Of a DNA stretch of 64,000 bases, positions 788-16,223 are shown in pieces (positions within the stretch are counted from its first letter, which is position 1; the number at the start of each line of letters is the position of its first letter). The stretch is from the IMG/VR virus record IMGVR_UViG_3300002053_000019, positions 1-64,000 of that record; one strand, given 5' to 3'. The DNA is from a virus. Under the pieces are notes generated by a model that saw only the letters and a program-made list of their open reading frames with translations, was not told where the DNA came from and ran no database searches. The position numbers were made by a program, and so were the translations under genes.

Positions 788-2263
788 TTATCCCTTTGTC
801 CTCCTTTTCCTTGGAATCTTAATCTTATATTTCTCAAGCGTCCTTAACATAACACCTTTAGGAGTCAAGTCTTCCGCACCAAAGATGGCTTTCAATATAG
901 CTGGACTAAAGCCAGATACTAATGCCACATTCTTATGTTTCGTAGTCGTTGGTTGTCCCGCATAACCAGTCGTATTCCAATAGACAACTTGAGGAATATC
1001 ATATCCAGCCTCAAGCCATTCATCCAATACATTCTCAACCTCTGCTTTCTTACCTGTTGTTCCTTGATGGAACTGCATATCAGAAACGATAAGAAGCATA
1101 TTAGGCATGCCCTCTTTCGATACGTTGAAGAACTTCGCTGCTTTTAATAATGTTCTTAATGCTTTAGCTATCTGCGTAGAGCCAACCGCACCATCAAAGA
1201 TGGTATGACTCTTCACCGCTTGAGAGAACTTCATACCATTCCAATCCTTAAGTTTGCCCTCAGAGCAGAAAGCTAGGAACTTCTTATAGAATGGATTGTC
1301 CTTGGGAATCTTAGCGGAGCAGTATAATGCCATCCCTTGGCTGATGTGAACAGCTTGCACAGAGCCACTTACTGCTGTGCTCATAGAACCAGAAGTATCA
1401 CAGACTACAATAGGTCTTGCTCCTGTTTCCATGTAATTTGGTAGGGCATCAAACTGTGCATCGGCAATCTTGCTATCACCACTAAGTACAGTTCTTACAC
1501 AGTCGTGTGGAAACAGCACATCACTATGGATAGTCGCTTTGCCCTTTTCCAAAGCTTCCTTATACGCTTCGAATCTCTCCGCATCATGCCTTCCAAATGC
1601 TTTGGTGTAGCGTGCCATAGCCACTGAAGGAACATGCTCGTATGTAATTTTGTTCCATTGATTTGAACACATCTTATACTCAACGATGTGGTCTTTCCGA
1701 ATCTCAGCGAGGATTTTCCTAAATGCCCTCTCATTTAACGAGCCTGCTCTTCGCAAAGGCTTATCGCTTCTGTCTGCCCACTTAGCAGCCAGCACATCCT
1801 TCTCACTCAAAGCGTGTGTCCATAGCTTTACAGCTATCTTCTCACACTCTGTGCCGAATAGAGTGCGAAGGTCATCCCACCTTCCAACCAATGGAATCCA
1901 GCCAATATTGAGGTCAATCCATCTTGGGTCTTCCTTAGCCAACCATCCAAGACAGGCTCTGAATCCACTTCTATTCCCTGCTCCACCACGACAATCTCTC
2001 AGCCATAATAGAAGCTTAAAAGATACTGTTGGGTCAACTATCCAGGTCTTTTGGAACAGAGATAAAGCGGAATCTTCGCTGCCGTAGAAGGTTCCCTTCT
2101 TAATAAATAGAGAACCAGCCTTACTAAAGAATTCCACAGCATGGTCTAGAGAATGCTCATACTGTTTCGCTCCTTCATGTGTCTTATCAGGAGTCTTTGG
2201 AATCCTATAGTCTTCCCCTTCCATCTCTTCATCTTCAAATTCGTCTTCGTAATCGTCCCACAT
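788..2263 (-). CDS. DUF2828 / TROVE-vWA (Ro60-like) protein
   Basis: 491-residue protein with an acidic N-terminal tail, an alpha-helical TROVE-like first half (WLRDCRGGAGNRSGFRACL and repeated helices) and a C-terminal von Willebrand A-type domain. The metal-ion adhesion motif DTSGSMS is at about residue 288, followed by SDMQF and a YWNTTGY...SGFSPAILKAIF ending characteristic of DUF2828. TROVE/Ro60 proteins bind misfolded or small structured RNAs. DUF2828 members occur in phages, giant viruses and eukaryotes, and their biochemistry is largely unknown. The start at 2263 has AAGGAGGAT upstream, whereas a longer frame to 2320 would overlap the previous gene. RNA binding is inferred from the family; the presence of a large structured RNA in the same arm makes it an attractive partner. 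Confidence 0.8.
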   Translation of the reverse strand: MWDDYEDEFEDEEMEGEDYRIPKTPDKTHEGAKQYEHSLDHAVEFFSKAGSLFIKKGTFYGSEDSALSLFQKTWIVDPTVSFKLLLWLRDCRGGAGNRSGFRACLGWLAKEDPRWIDLNIGWIPLVGRWDDLRTLFGTECEKIAVKLWTHALSEKDVLAAKWADRSDKPLRRAGSLNERAFRKILAEIRKDHIVEYKMCSNQWNKITYEHVPSVAMARYTKAFGRHDAERFEAYKEALEKGKATIHSDVLFPHDCVRTVLSGDSKIADAQFDALPNYMETGARPIVVCDTSGSMSTAVSGSVQAVHISQGMALYCSAKIPKDNPFYKKFLAFCSEGKLKDWNGMKFSQAVKSHTIFDGAVGSTQIAKALRTLLKAAKFFNVSKEGMPNMLLIVSDMQFHQGTTGKKAEVENVLDEWLEAGYDIPQVVYWNTTGYAGQPTTTKHKNVALVSGFSPAILKAIFGAEDLTPKGVMLRTLEKYKIKIPRKRRTKG

Positions 2264-5750: not shown

Positions 5751-6016
5751 TCTATTTCTCCCATCTCTATCTTCTTCCAATGCTCGTAATATCCATGCCC
5801 GCAATAAGGACAATGGAATGTTTTGTTAAAGACTTCTTGCGGATTATTCTTCTCTTCATTAATCAAATCCGTATAGTTTCTTCTCTTCCCTAATACTTTG
5901 ATTCCTTCTACGAATCCACATCCTACACATTGTATAGGATATCTAGGGTTTTTGTAACAAGCGATATAGGTAGGTCTTTTACACCAGCTTGGTTTTAATT
6001 GTTTTGTTAGTGCCAT
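5747..6016 (-). CDS. zinc-ribbon protein, 89 aa
   Basis: Contains four Cys positions in two knuckles (CVGC near residue 30 and CPYC near residue 69) plus an N-terminal CKRP..C. This fits a zinc ribbon of 40-50 residues. AAAAGGAGAG lies before the ATG. It is coupled to the next gene by an ATGA overlap. No specific function recognised. Confidence 0.65.
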   Translation of the reverse strand: MALTKQLKPSWCKRPTYIACYKNPRYPIQCVGCGFVEGIKVLGKRRNYTDLINEEKNNPQEVFNKTFHCPYCGHGYYEHWKKIEMGEIE

Positions 6017-6299
6017 CTTGTTCTCTCCTTTTGCATATTGGACAGTATTTCCTTGCGTTCTTCTTATTCTTTATTAATCTTTCATATTGTTTACTCCCCT
6101 TCCATAAGCCAAATACCACAAACGGTATTCGCTTCTTATAGTATGCTTCTATATATTTCACTCCACTCTTACCAGTAGCGTGGAGTTGTAACCTCTTGTA
6201 AAGATTGAGTTTCTTGCATGAACCGATGTAATGTTGGGCAGGTCTGGTGGGATTTAACGGTGAGATAAAATGAAGCCCATAGACGATTTCAGTTTGCAT
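5979..6299 (-). CDS. GIY-YIG nuclease-like protein
   Basis: 106-residue protein whose first 85 residues match the GIY-YIG fold of small phage/bacterial nucleases: IVYGLHF, then QHYIGSCK in the second YIG-like position, the conserved Arg in LYKRLQLH, and the Glu-containing YERLIKNKKNARKYCPICK ending. GIY-YIG proteins cleave DNA using one metal ion. Here the GIY strand is degenerate (VYGLHF), so activity is uncertain. GGGAAG is a weak SD, and the start overlaps the upstream acetyltransferase gene by 46 bases. Confidence 0.65.
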   Translation of the reverse strand: MQTEIVYGLHFISPLNPTRPAQHYIGSCKKLNLYKRLQLHATGKSGVKYIEAYYKKRIPFVVFGLWKGSKQYERLIKNKKNARKYCPICKRREQDGTNKTIKTKLV

Positions 6300-6715
6300 T
6301 GTGCTTCCCTATAATGTAAACGAATCATAGAATATTGATTTGGTTGAAAGTTTGCACATAGTAATCCTGCTTGTTTATATGTATTACATTGTTGACAAGC
6401 ATTGGATTCAATACTAAAGTTCGCACAAGTATTCTTTAAAGGCTTCAATGCTACGAAGCCTCTCTTTACGTAGAAATCGTATTTATGATGGGCACAGTCT
6501 AATTTTGGAGTCCTATGTAGTTCCTTATTACAATAGGATACCGCGGCCTCTAACAATGCAGTTCCATATCCTTTCTCTCTATATGCTTCTTTTATATAAA
6601 AGCCCGCAATATATCCCGTCTCATCTACCTCTAGTTCTCCAATAGATTCTTCTCCTGAAAGGAGTTCTATCTTTTCCCAGCTACCGAAGGCACGTCTTAC
6701 TATCTCCATCTTCAT
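6254..6715 (-). CDS. GNAT-family acetyltransferase with Cys-rich tail
   Basis: Residues 1-90 form a GNAT core: a strand pair ending AGFYIKEAYREKGYGTALLE, in which RxxGxG binds acetyl-CoA, then a helix and YDFYVKRGFVAL. Residues 95-153 are an added segment with three cysteines (C97, C107, C110) and CANF repeated twice, possibly a zinc knuckle. GNAT enzymes acetylate amines; the substrate is unknown. AAAGGGGAA precedes the ATG at 6715, and the start overlaps the upstream stop. Confidence 0.7.
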   Translation of the reverse strand: MKMEIVRRAFGSWEKIELLSGEESIGELEVDETGYIAGFYIKEAYREKGYGTALLEAAVSYCNKELHRTPKLDCAHHKYDFYVKRGFVALKPLKNTCANFSIESNACQQCNTYKQAGLLCANFQPNQYSMIRLHYREAQCKLKSSMGFILSHR

Positions 6716-7539: not shown

Positions 7540-7719
7540 CTATACCATCTCAGGGTGTGCCTTAGCTACCCTTTTAGATAGCTTCAGTCCTTCTTGCACT
7601 TCCTCTTTCTCTATAGGAATGTTATGTCCACACCCTGAGCAATGGAGATATGAACAGCAAGTGATTAACATTCCTTTACCACAGATAGGACAAGCTTTTG
7701 GTTCAATAAATGTATTCAT
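7540..7719 (-). CDS. zinc-ribbon miniprotein, 59 aa
   Basis: Encodes MNTFIEPKACPICGKGMLIT followed by CCSYLHCSGCGHN, a textbook two-knuckle zinc ribbon (C-x2-C, about 14 residues, C-x2-C), then a charged helix. GGGGAG lies seven bases before the ATG at 7719. The start overlaps the stop of the upstream HNH-like gene. Confidence 0.7.
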   Translation of the reverse strand: MNTFIEPKACPICGKGMLITCCSYLHCSGCGHNIPIEKEEVQEGLKLSKRVAKAHPEMV

Positions 7720-7958
7720 GGTCGCACTCCCCTTTCTCTTTTATATCTCCCATTTTGCTTGACAAATATCTCTATTTGCCTTGGCTTCTTAACTATGGGA
7801 GTGGGATTGCATTTAACATGGGCGAGCTTATAGGAAGTGGTATGATGACCCAAGACTTTATACATAGTGGGATATAACTCTGGAGATTTTCTGCTAACTA
7901 ACTGATTGCATATTTGACAAATCCCTCTGTATCTATGCACAATATCTTTGAGCCTCAT
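7716..7958 (-). CDS. HNH-like zinc protein, 80 aa
   Basis: Has CQICNQLV near residue 14, a central GHHTTS and LAHVKCNP near residue 50, the spacing of a minimal HNH/zinc-knuckle nuclease fold. The catalytic core residues cannot be assigned with certainty, so it may be a non-catalytic zinc protein. The start at 7958 follows AAGGGAGG; a longer frame from 8012 would run through the terminator hairpin at 7990-8029 and is rejected. Confidence 0.55.
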   Translation of the reverse strand: MRLKDIVHRYRGICQICNQLVSRKSPELYPTMYKVLGHHTTSYKLAHVKCNPTPIVKKPRQIEIFVKQNGRYKRERGVRP

Positions 7959-7989: not shown

Positions 7990-8029
7990 AAATAAAAGGG
8001 GAGCAAGGCCAAGAACCTTACTCCCCTTT
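7990..8029 (-). terminator. rho-independent terminator
   Basis: Read on the minus strand, AAAGGGGAG (8029-8021) and an inner AAGG pair with CCTT and CTCCCCTTT (8003-7995), followed by a T-rich run (TTTTATTTTAT). It sits at the 3' end of the gene-free structured stretch and just upstream of the 7716-7958 gene, so it probably ends the large RNA. Confidence 0.8.
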
Positions 8030-9060
8030 CTGATGTTATTCCTTTTTAGTTTCTCTTCGGCATTGGAACAACTACTATATTGAAGCACTCAGTTTCATGT
8101 TATCGTGTTGAACTGAGTGGGTAAACCATCACTCTCTATTGACTTAGAAGCTTCCGCTTCTCTCTCTGCATTTTAGTTGACGGCTTTCCACTTTAGTCCG
8201 CCTGATTACCAGATTAGGATGAACGCTTGTATTAACTCCCATATCATCCTTACTTGGAGCATATAATCTATGTAGGCTTTTATTCCTTGCCATAGATAGC
8301 AGGTAATATTTCAGCTCTCCTTGGTTTATCTCCGAACGTAACCAACTTGGTTACTTGACTGTTTCCCTCTCTCCGCTTACTCAAGTGTATAAGCAGAATT
8401 CACGGCTTATTTCTTGCCTTAATCTGTAGCTTAGATAGGCAAGCTACTTTAGGCAATAACACCGTGAGAGAGTAAACCCAAGAGCTTTCTCCGTTACCAC
8501 GGCTTCGGTATACCCCGCAGGATAACCAGCGTTTTTGTTGACGGGGAACTCGCATCCATAAGGCGTTGCCTTTATCCGCTGTTACAAGCTGGCATCACCA
8601 GTCCATCTGTGCAACTGGCTTGCTACTTGTTAAGAATCGCTATGTTACAGTAAGGTATCCGCTTAGGGTATATATCCGACCACCTTTCGTATGGCTCCAC
8701 CCATCATCTTCTAACCCTCACATAGCTAATAGTTGTCACCAAGCTAATGAAACTTGATGGAAAGTTTAAAGGAGTTTAACCATTTTTCGTTGACTATCGC
8801 ATCCCTTGTGTGAGATACCAGTTAAGGGATGTCCAAGTTATCCACTCCTCAAGGCAGGCATATAATATTTGAGTCCTCTAAGGTTCGCATTTATCCGAAA
8901 GTTAATTGGCATTATGACGAATAAATCATTTGAACCGCTCTACCCTTATATGCCACATATATTCAGGCACTTTCAAGCCTTGGCTATATGCAAGCCATAT
9001 ATGATGTTATCTCTATGCTTATATTAGCCATAGAGAATTGCATCCATACCATAGAATAGA
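8030..9060 (-). ncRNA. candidate large structured ncRNA (GOLLD/ROOL-type)
   Basis: About 1030 bases without a credible gene in an otherwise packed arm, closed by a terminator on the minus strand. It is full of perfect inverted repeats. Examples: GTAACCA/TGGTTAC (8338-8354); GTAGCTT/AAGCTAC (8426-8447) nested in TTGCCT/AGGCAA (8413-8456); ATAAGC/GCTTAT (8389-8410); AAGGC/GCCTT (8560-8572); CCAGT/ACTGG inside CAAGC/GCTTG (8586-8622); CATCCCTT/AAGGGATG (8800-8831); CTCTATG/CATAGAG (9011-9035). Phages are known to carry giant ornate RNAs such as GOLLD (about 800 nt) and ROOL (about 600 nt). Size and setting favour GOLLD, but I cannot verify the consensus from sequence alone. Strand is inferred from the terminator and the flanking genes; the 5' end is approximate. 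Confidence 0.6.
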
Positions 9061-9065
9061 GTAGG

Positions 9066-9317
9066 TCAGTCTATAAATTGTTTCATATCACCAGCTTTGC
9101 GAAGAATAATAGTGGGAATAAACTTCTTCTTAGCTATTCCCCTTGCATTCTTATTGAATATCTTAATCTTCGCTCTGCCCTTTACCATCAAAGCACCCTC
9201 ATTACATTTGCCATACCGAACTCTATGGCGTATAATATCCCAGTTGGTATGACCCTTAAGGTGTCGCTTTATATGTCCGTAAGCGTGGCGTCTATGATAG
9301 CATTTAATTCCTATCAT
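9066..9317 (-). CDS. hypothetical highly basic protein, 83 aa
   Basis: Extremely basic protein (KCYHRRHAYGHIKRHLKGHT; KGRAKIKIFNKNARGIAKKK), suggestive of nucleic-acid binding. GGAGCTTAAAG precedes the ATG at 9317; the start overlaps the end of the upstream gene by 14 bases. It is the last gene before the structured RNA region. Function unknown. Confidence 0.6.
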   Translation of the reverse strand: MIGIKCYHRRHAYGHIKRHLKGHTNWDIIRHRVRYGKCNEGALMVKGRAKIKIFNKNARGIAKKKFIPTIILRKAGDMKQFID

Positions 9318-9504
9318 CTTTAAGCTCCACAAAGAGCAGAGTCTTAAGCATCTCCATCACTTCCCAATATGCGGAAGCCTTACCCTCAAAGTAAGCCTTA
9401 AGTTGCTTACTATTTCTCTTCTCTTCTGCTTCTTCCACAATGGTCTGTGCTGTATGATGCTTAGACGCTAAACTCTCCAGTATTCTTTCGATAGCCTTTC
9501 TCAT
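9304..9504 (-). CDS. hypothetical helical protein, 66 aa
   Basis: Helical, charged protein ending in EGKASAYWEVMEMLKTLLF, a pattern common in small uncharacterised phage proteins (AYxEVxxxL). AAAGGAGCG precedes the ATG. It overlaps the upstream stop by four bases, indicating coupling. Confidence 0.65.
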   Translation of the reverse strand: MRKAIERILESLASKHHTAQTIVEEAEEKRNSKQLKAYFEGKASAYWEVMEMLKTLLFVELKDDRN

Positions 9505-9680
9505 ATGCCACGCTCCTTTCTGCTACCAATATTCCTGCGTTTTATTTCAGCAGGATAATAGCACTTAAAGTCCTGCGTGGCATTAGGCTTCTTATGGAGC
9601 AGATTCATTTTGAGCCTGTCGCCGCAGGATTGACAGCATTTAGTCGGATGTAAGTCCGTGTTTTTATAAGGCTTCTTCAT
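9501..9680 (-). CDS. Cys-rich small protein, 59 aa
   Basis: Contains CCQSCGDRL near residue 15 and a later Cys (FKCYYP), enough for a single zinc knuckle. The ATG at 9680 has AAAGGGGAAAG upstream; an in-frame start 12 codons earlier lies within the preceding membrane-protein gene. Function unknown. Confidence 0.6.
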   Translation of the reverse strand: MKKPYKNTDLHPTKCCQSCGDRLKMNLLHKKPNATQDFKCYYPAEIKRRNIGSRKERGI

Positions 9681-9807
9681 CGACTTTCCCCTTTCTATCT
9701 CCTTTAATCGTTCCATACACTATTAAGTATGCTAATACACACAAGCAAGGAAACCACAAAGGAGATGTGAAGAATAGAATTGTCAGCATAAATGCATATG
9801 CTTCCAT
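9664..9807 (-). CDS. small membrane protein, 47 aa
   Basis: Encodes a single long hydrophobic segment (AFMLTILFFTSPLWFPCLCV then LAYLIVYG) followed by a basic/acidic tail. GAAGGAGAAT lies before the ATG at 9807. It is the first gene downstream of the hammerhead ribozyme, so it would be translated from the 3' cleavage product. Confidence 0.6.
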   Translation of the reverse strand: MEAYAFMLTILFFTSPLWFPCLCVLAYLIVYGTIKGDRKGKVDEEAL

Positions 9808-9834
9808 ATTATTCTCCTTCCCGACTAACCTACT

Positions 9835-9854
9835 CTATTCAATTTTCAAAGAAC
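9835..9854 (-). promoter_or_regulatory. repeated upstream motif, copy 1
   Basis: On the minus strand this reads GTTCTTTGAAAATTGAATAG and matches 17 of 20 positions in a second copy at 10637-10656. Both copies stand upstream of a leftward gene after an RNA-processing or termination site. The first half also forms the outer strand of hammerhead stem II. It may be a promoter or leader element; neither is proven. Confidence 0.4.
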
Positions 9855-9978
9855 GGGGACTCATCAGTGTAGCTATGAGCTACATATAGGGGAGCATCAG
9901 ATTGATTTGGGTTTGCATTCACGCAGTTTAGTTGCGGAAATCAACCTTCAACTGCTCCCTCTATTTCGTCCTTCTATG
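9846..9978 (-). ncRNA. type II hammerhead ribozyme
   Basis: All conserved core elements are present on the minus strand, in the type II (stem II open) order. They are GGAC-GAAA (9971-9964), stem III beginning UAG (bulged A) GGGAGCA and closed by UGCUCCC-CUA, the cleavage triplet AUA (9887-9885), stem I UGUAGCU/AGCUACA with a 3-nt loop (9884-9868), CUGAUGA (9867-9861), then GUCC. Stem II is AGAAGGAC pairing with GUCC-CCG-UUCU, with a three-base bulge. The stem III loop carries its own pairing (GGUUGAUUU/AAAUCAAUC and CGCA/UGCG). Self-cleavage is predicted between 9885 and 9884, separating upstream from downstream genes of the leftward transcript. Confidence 0.88.
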
Positions 9979-9979
9979 C

Positions 9980-10024
9980 AGGTTGGAATTGTCCGTATAA
10001 GGGTTTAATTGCTGTATCCAACCT
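9980..10024 (-). other. 8-bp hairpin next to the ribozyme
   Basis: AGGTTGGA (9980-9987) is perfectly complementary to TCCAACCT (10017-10024), enclosing 29 bases. It lies directly 5' of the ribozyme on the minus-strand transcript and just after the stop of the 10035-10208 gene. It could protect the new 3' end or insulate folding. No T-run follows, so it is not a typical terminator. Confidence 0.55.
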
Positions 10025-10034
10025 TCATATAGGA

Positions 10035-10208: not shown

Positions 10209-10297
10209 TCTTATCACCCCTTTCTTATTTGGATTTAAAAGAACAATATAGATAAGGGATAAGGGAAGGATAGAAGATGGGAAGTAATCAAGACCAT

Positions 10298-10636: not shown

Positions 10637-10656
10637 TTATTCTATTTTCAAAGAGC
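10637..10656 (-). promoter_or_regulatory. repeated upstream motif, copy 2
   Basis: On the minus strand reads GCTCTTTGAAAATAGAATAA, almost the same as the copy at 9835-9854. It lies between the terminator at 10681-10727 and the 10298-10570 gene, a good position for a promoter that restarts transcription. Confidence 0.4.
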
Positions 10657-10727: not shown

Positions 10728-10855
10728 ATATATGCTGTTATAAGCAGGAATCTGATTGACAGATTATATCGTTATATCGCTCGGCTTATAAGACGGTCTA
10801 TATAGGCAACAAAAGGTCGCTTAGATGATGTAATCTACAAACAACTTGGTGCAGA
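10728..10855. other. intergenic, possible hairpin
   Basis: No gene seen. GTAATCT and AGATTAC (about 10841-10859) form a 7-bp inverted repeat beside the stop of the 10856-11224 gene, without a T-run. Otherwise nothing supported. Confidence 0.4.
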
Positions 10856-11224
10856 TTACAAATCAAGCAATTCGGCCAGCAAGGTCATGTTCTTCTTCGT
10901 GGACTCCTTGACCTTATGCTCAACGGTCTTGACGAAAGATAGGCTAAATCCGCCCTTCACAGGCTTGCCGTATATCTTTCCTTCCCGAATGAGTTTCTGG
11001 CTTTCATCGATAGGGTCATAACCCAGCTCTCGAAGAGTGTCATTTAGCGACTTCATCTTCTGGTCGCCAATGACTGGCTTGAAATAGACGGTATGGCAAG
11101 AATAGACGACTCTAGGCTTGCCATCATTCCCTAACTTAGGTGTGCCATCTTCGTTCTTTAGTGGCACTCCCCTTTCAGCGGCTTTGATATAAGCACTGAT
11201 AACTGCTTCTGCAGTAGGCTTCAT
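10856..11224 (-). CDS. hypothetical protein, 122 aa
   Basis: Unrecognised protein. It has an N-terminal helix (AEAVISAYIKAAERGVPLKN), a loop with repeated Asp-Gly turns, a middle that reads like a small helix-turn domain (SLNDTLRELGYDPIDESQKL) and a basic C-terminal helix. AAAGGAGAACACT gives a clear SD. It is the first well-supported gene of the leftward arm and ends in its own terminator, so it may be expressed separately and early. A regulatory role is possible but not shown. Confidence 0.65.
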   Translation of the reverse strand: MKPTAEAVISAYIKAAERGVPLKNEDGTPKLGNDGKPRVVYSCHTVYFKPVIGDQKMKSLNDTLRELGYDPIDESQKLIREGKIYGKPVKGGFSLSFVKTVEHKVKESTKKNMTLLAELLDL

Positions 11225-11239: not shown

Positions 11240-11580
11240 ACTCCATCTGGAGTGCGATAATGAGGGTTTAGTAGCACATAGATAGCCTATACAGACCGCC
11301 TAACAAGCCGAACGATATGTAGTTTAGAAAGAGCGTCATCGTTGCATCCGTTTGCACCGATGATTCAGTCGGCCTAACCGACTTTCGACCCCAACTTAAC
11401 ACGATTTTGGTTATCCACATCGGTCGGATGGGCAAAAACTCCAATGATTTTCGATACTTCCGAATCCAAATCCACAAATTTCGATATTTCAATCGGAGAA
11501 GTGCCACCTAACCAAGGTTGTGATGAACCACATACCCCCCCACCATGCCTAAACAATCCCTTACACCGACTCCGTTTCAT
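11240..11580. other. structured strand-switch region, no confident gene
   Basis: Holds AGTCGG/CCGACT (11367-11383) nested inside ACCGATG/CATCGGT, and near-repeats around ATTTTCGATA (about 11440-11490). Weak leftward frames exist: 68 codons at 11374-11580 with CGAGG as a poor SD, and a 23-codon hydrophobic peptide at 11268-11339. Codon use is richer in CGN/CCG/TCG than in neighbouring genes, so I do not call them. A divergent region like this is a common place for origins and control sites. Confidence 0.4.
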
Positions 11581-15974: not shown

Positions 15975-16223
15975 ATGAGAGATAATCATAGAGAAACAGT
16001 AATTCTACCATCAGACTTTGAGGAATGGGAATCCGCTCGGAATGGTGAAAGTTATACAAAAAGAAGAAGTGGCTATATTAAAATCTATACCCCAGAAGAG
16101 GTTATAGAATTTGCCAAAATTCATCCAGAAACAGTCCTTTCATTTGGTGCGTGGAAGGCTGAGCGGGATCGTAAAAATCTAGTAGATTCAGCTAGTTGTA
16201 TCTTGCCGTGGAATCGGAGTTGA
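15975..16223 (+). CDS. hypothetical protein, 82 aa
   Basis: Unrecognised; charged, with SGYIKIYTPEEVIEFAKIHP as a possible helix-containing core. AGCAGGAT precedes the ATG. No motif seen. Confidence 0.6.
   Translation: MRDNHRETVILPSDFEEWESARNGESYTKRRSGYIKIYTPEEVIEFAKIHPETVLSFGAWKAERDRKNLVDSASCILPWNRS

Follow-up and report, generated by a model that had tools for sequence, protein, structure and literature searches.

A candidate gene for a large structured noncoding RNA in the leftward operon of an uncultured tailed phage

A region of about 1.07 kb in the genome of an uncultured phage is, we conclude with moderate confidence, the gene of a large, free-standing structured noncoding RNA, encoded on the minus strand of a leftward operon and ending at a terminator. 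The 64-kb stretch analysed here (the window) belongs to a record of 82,957 bases from a tailed phage that encodes major capsid, terminase and portal proteins and whose minus strand carries genes at about 0.5-11.5 kb. An identical stretch is found in a record of 112.9 kb (G001). The phage is a large, uncultured tailed phage of more than 100 kb with a bacterial host. Only a handful of giant, ornate phage RNAs have been described, and what they do is an open question. If the reading presented here is true, it would add one more class that Rfam lacks, from a phage group sampled little so far, organised like an RNA operon and accompanied by a conserved neighbouring gene termed HTV, and such a class would offer a new way to learn the roles and protein partners of giant RNAs.

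A preliminary description had placed a gene-free, highly structured region at 8030-9060; the region is real, and its coordinates are corrected here to 7994-9065 on the minus strand. The features of the region and its edges are as follows.

7994 to 9065, minus strand (read right to left): candidate noncoding RNA gene, about 1.07 kb, recognised by the lack of a credible ORF, folding energy (MFE z) and an excess of stems; the 5' end is a probable position.
7994 to 8030, minus strand (8030-7994): intrinsic terminator with a 17-bp stem, a loop of 3 and a U-rich tail, the putative 3' end of the RNA.
7716 to 7958, minus strand: next downstream gene, with its own Shine-Dalgarno (SD) sequence and a start about 35 nt past the terminator.
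8937 to 8954, minus strand: GGCATATAAGGGTAGAGC, the 5' side of a predicted helix of moderate pairing probability for which an alternative pairing exists, followed by the motif GGYAGAG.
9066 to 9317, minus strand: last small ORF before the focal RNA, 83 aa from an ATG, of no known family.

The absence of genes bears out: neither strand of 7994-9065 contains a credible ORF, and codon scores, SD sequences, Pfam, PHROG and tblastx agree. Flanked by an ORF that ends at 9066 and a gene whose start is at 7958, the interval 8013-9065 is the longest ORF-free gap in the window when ORFs of at least 70 aa are counted. Most genes adjoining the region possess an SD and have positive codon scores. Frames of 31-63 aa inside it are few, with codon scores that are negative or near zero and no SD; the exception, a 34-codon TTG frame, scores +5.6 but also lacks an SD. 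Searches of the region gave no match in Pfam, nothing meaningful in PHROG and no tblastx match to the relatives described below. We consider the region noncoding because codon scores and SD sequences separate the neighbouring genes from these inner short frames, which have no family or translated match.

The description of the region as highly structured also holds, with a minus-strand MFE z of about -5 (-5.3 with 20 shuffles, -4.9 with 30). Four perfect Watson-Crick stems of at least 8 bp are present against 0.8 expected in shuffles (maximum 3; n=60), and the minus strand is predicted to form 19 helices of at least 5 bp with a mean pairing probability above 0.8. The plus strand folds well too (z -3.9 to -4.2). 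Elsewhere in the genome several 400- or 1076-nt tiles, some of them in coding DNA, have z values of -4 to -7; because such tiles fold equally well, folding energy is not by itself diagnostic, a low z in short tiles was not accepted as proof of an RNA, and the case for the focal RNA rests on the combined evidence. The minus-strand terminator noted previously is confirmed as a 17-bp intrinsic terminator at 8030-7994, the strongest perfect-stem intrinsic terminator found in the 83-kb record and its sole minus-strand stem of at least 12 bp with a U-rich tail. The focal RNA would be transcribed leftward along with the surrounding genes, and this terminator, which is evident in the sequence, would set its 3' end. 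Because so strong a terminator separates the two, the product is probably a free-standing RNA rather than the leader of the next gene.

Membership in GOLLD or ROOL, or alternatively a new class, had been suggested; a large structured minus-strand noncoding RNA remains the best reading, but Rfam does not recognise it as GOLLD, ROOL or HEARO. Searched at gathering scores, the window contains no match to Rfam 15. With E<=5 and lax filters, weak chance matches alone came up in the focal region; the best, rli52 on the terminator hairpin, scored 26.8 bits where the gathering score is 70. The models for GOLLD, ROOL and HEARO, the families proposed for checking, failed to match even at these permissive thresholds, and we therefore do not assign the RNA to any of them. 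A blastn search of 50,697 phages and about 40 related records recovered G001 alone, at 100% identity; short matches in five other records (G008, G010, G012, G017 and G041) lie in coding DNA and were rejected. Searches with HTV, TerS and a Ro-like protein produced no closer relative of the locus. The focal RNA thus fits no known RNA family and is absent from Rfam and, G001 aside, from the phage records searched. It is noncoding, structured beyond shuffles and equipped with its own terminator, general traits of large structured phage RNAs. A typical ROOL is about 600 nt and lies near tRNA islands, whereas a tRNA search of the 64-kb window found no tRNA gene.

The same arm encodes several other proteins. 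At 788-2320 on the minus strand lies a 510-aa protein with DUF2828 and DUF7788 that matches PHROG 850, 'RNA-binding protein' (E 3e-95); we take it to resemble Ro60/TROVE proteins, and it is a possible partner of the focal RNA, encoded on the same strand. Small minus-strand genes at 5979-6299 and 6254-6715 encode a GIY-YIG-like protein (below cut-off) and a GNAT acetyltransferase, respectively.

A capsid search retrieved 19 loci, four of those in large records (the identical one apart) counting as absent or fragmentary, and three records, G005 (102.6 kb), G013 (110.2 kb) and G016 (106.5 kb), span the corresponding arm, with major capsid proteins 57-61% identical to that of the window phage; a capsid profile search of genome contigs gave no match. 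All three have, in that early arm and immediately behind the HTV gene, 0.8-0.9 kb of noncoding sequence, the largest or near-largest such stretch of the respective genome.

G005, 16208-15356, minus strand: noncoding RNA-like stretch.
G005, 16084-16153, minus strand: tRNA-Ile (GAT) near the 5' end of that stretch, 49.6 bits.
G005, 16699-16663 with 16169-16204: HTV-flanking repeat.
G013, 95630-96441, plus strand: noncoding RNA-like stretch.
G013, 95208-95246 with 95677-95715: HTV-flanking repeat.
G016, 791-1723, plus strand: noncoding RNA-like stretch.
G016, 387-418 with 828-859: HTV-flanking repeat.

The G013 and G016 stretches are homologous (blastn E 1e-9), and their alignment has the properties of a conserved RNA. 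Its alifold energy is -88.8 versus -39.6 +/- 6.0 in column shuffles (z -8.2), the antisense value is weaker (-68.9), and two-sided compensatory pairs number 47 versus 29 +/- 5 in column shuffles. Just 6 of 19 alignment gaps have a length that is a multiple of 3. Two cores stand out: all 31 pairs of the first are kept in both phages, 11 of them changed on both sides, as are all 13 of the second, with 5 changed on both sides, and structures slid along the cores lose most of their pairs. At the end of the G016 stretch is a 17-bp terminator resembling the one in the window. The tRNA-Ile of G005 is close to T4-type phage tRNAs, and a phage-record search with the G005 stretch returned tRNAs as its only matches. 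With Rfam, the three counterparts did not match GOLLD or ROOL, and tRNAs alone were found. On account of the covariation and pair conservation between G013 and G016, the G016 terminator and the G005 tRNA, the counterparts are very likely real structured RNAs. Scans of 2.9 million viral contigs with the motif A and motif B patterns recovered G013 and G016 as the only true members, and the same scan of genome contigs recovered none. The pair supplies a core, backed by covariation, with which other metagenomes can be screened. A record that looked like a further one of the G005 type (L181) proved essentially identical. Just after the giant RNA of G013, a strong second inverted repeat (96491-96516 with 96880-96905; 26 nt, 96%) surrounds two small ORFs.

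The relation of the focal RNA to these counterparts is one of arrangement. Local alignments of the focal RNA to them score at shuffle level, and overall the four RNAs share about as many k-mers as chance predicts. The two G013/G016 cores served to build covariance models R1 and R2, which gave no significant match in the window or in G005; their matches in two other records (L140 and L157) were unconvincing. Covariation is seen in the G013/G016 counterpart, whereas the sole homologue of the focal RNA is identical to it. All four RNAs have the motif GGYAGAG on the sense strand (each counterpart has one or two copies) and none has it on the antisense strand; judged from genome rates (P about 0.02), this sharing is no more than suggestive. 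In the window, several small ORFs and about 1.8 kb of DNA separate the end of HTV from the focal RNA downstream of it, whereas the counterparts lie directly beside HTV. Directly after HTV the window has instead a structured segment of about 180 nt (10855-10679, minus strand), which ends in a terminator-like hairpin with seven T (10722-10679). Because there is no sequence link and the position is similar but not identical, we call the focal RNA an architectural counterpart, not a proven homologue, of the other three. Its upstream features are listed here.

10856 to 11224, minus strand: HTV gene, 122 aa, conserved in G005, G013 and G016 beside their RNAs.
11285 to 11318, minus strand: left arm of repeat IR1, which flanks HTV (34 nt, 85%, duplex -55 kcal/mol).
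10774 to 10807, minus strand: right arm of IR1.
10648-10606 with 10245-10285: IR2, a weaker, purine-rich repeat around a 90-aa ORF, with a boxA-like string before it.
9823 to 10034, minus strand: structured noncoding segment upstream of IR3 (z -3.9 sense, -2.6 antisense).
9835 to 9853, minus strand: TTCTTTGAAAATTGAATA, a boxA-like string overlapping the left arm of IR3, with a second copy at about 10637-10654, before IR2.
9823 to 9843, minus strand: left arm of IR3, which with the right arm encloses the small ORFs at 9066-9807.
9051 to 9071, minus strand: right arm of IR3, at the 5' edge of the focal RNA (19/21 match, duplex -29.5 kcal/mol).

HTV proteins share the motif [IL]HTV[FY]SGLN and match one another (window against G016, E 5e-5; G005 against G013, E 1e-4); an AlphaFold model of HTV was too poor for use (pLDDT 56). 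When long-range inverted repeats were scored over spans of up to 4 kb, the top-scoring repeat of the genome flanked HTV in all four phages, with arms of 32-39 nt, and IR1 is the strongest such repeat of the window's record. Arm sequences differ from phage to phage. Among equal-length arms, 10 of 12 transition differences are of a type that keeps the sense transcript paired through G-U (one-sided P 0.019), a bias that favours pairing in RNA. Segments upstream of the repeats are structured in three of the phages (z -3.1 to -3.9 in G013, G016 and the window), G005 being the exception. We tentatively raise the possibility that a clade of uncultured phages of about 100-113 kb carries a new, fast-evolving class of giant RNA in which a long-range stem closes a loop of small ORFs (HTV or others); a structured segment would precede this loop, and an ornate domain of 0.8-1.1 kb plus a terminator would follow it. 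The focal RNA would be one such element, diverged beyond sequence recognition.

How the 5' end of the focal RNA arises bears on the main alternative. No promoter-like site was found near 9065, and the end near this position would probably arise when a longer transcript is cleaved or trimmed at the 20-bp IR3 stem or close to it, a step that may be analogous to leader-trailer processing of rrn transcripts. The string at 9835-9853, presumably akin to rrn boxA, conforms to TTTGAAAA[CT]NGAAT, which occurs at two places only in 83 kb, before IR2 and before IR3. Within the upstream segment, a hammerhead reading of 9871-9840 on the minus strand (CTGATGAGTCC...GAAA) was rejected, since it has a core-like sequence but no proper stem II and Rfam gives no match. 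The segment at 9823-10034 is possibly a 5' domain of the focal transcript. Under the rival explanation the segment at 10034-9823, the IR3 stem with its enclosed small ORFs and the focal region constitute one transcript unit, a composite RNA whose rRNA-like leader-trailer helix, following a boxA-like site, serves mainly antitermination, processing and control of the enclosed ORFs. The HTV-flanking repeats of all four phages, the G-U bias of their arms, the confinement of the boxA-like string to the two repeats and the structured upstream segments of three of the four phages fit this explanation, as does the order in rRNA operons, where the leader-trailer helix cut by RNase III has boxA ahead of its left arm (PMC10250234). 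However, the IR3 score is near genome background (30.1 bits versus 31.9 elsewhere), so that its meaning rests on its place; the rrn helix encloses the RNA and not a preceding gene; no boxA-like string was matched in the relatives; and the upstream segment of G005 is unstructured. We regard the composite RNA as rather unlikely.

That the region is a neutral spacer or the remnant of a decayed gene, folding by chance, is improbable. The lack of a non-identical homologue of the focal RNA and a folding energy that is not unique in the genome are what such a spacer would give, but 1 kb of it would be out of character where genes nearly touch, and it leaves unexplained the strong terminator, the excess of stems and the similar-sized counterparts in relatives, two of them with covariation, while tblastx, Pfam and PHROG reveal no trace of a protein. 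A function at the DNA level, for example as a replication origin or a packaging site, would likewise suit noncoding sequence rich in inverted repeats, but it is very improbable, given that an equivalent noncoding block sits at another place, in the divergent-promoter region (about 11.2-11.8 kb; G013 94280-95215; G016 106060-436), that G013/G016 covariation is stronger on the sense strand and that arm mismatches favour G-U.

The preferred reading, a free-standing noncoding RNA, can be set beside known systems. HEARO and the omega RNAs of the IS200-IS605 type are also noncoding RNAs near small ORFs in mobile DNA, but the focal RNA has no Rfam match, is much longer and adjoins no such nuclease gene. 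The rrn leader-trailer with boxA is similar in that a boxA-like string lies just ahead of the left arm of a long-range helix (PMC10250234), but the window helix encloses small ORFs upstream of the RNA rather than the RNA itself. ROOL, like the focal RNA, is a large structured RNA of phages and prophages with no known protein partner (PMC12286853), but the focal RNA lacks an Rfam match, exceeds the typical ROOL in length and is away from any tRNA island. GOLLD is likewise phage-borne, often longer than 800 nt and ornately folded, with an unknown cellular role, and the tRNAs reported in its linkers are paralleled by the tRNA-Ile of the G005 counterpart (PMC12286853). Compared for the GOLLD traits of a conserved 3' half, a variable 5' half and, in some members, a linker tRNA, the set shows a tRNA in the G005 counterpart only and not in the focal RNA, and has too few homologues for a comparison of halves. 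Neither the focal RNA nor its counterparts match Rfam's GOLLD, and they differ from it also in their early-arm operon context with HTV. GOLLD and ROOL, of all large phage RNAs the two best known, assemble into RNA-only cages of unknown purpose (PMC12286853), and by analogy the focal RNA would probably act as a free-standing folded RNA or scaffold of this general kind.
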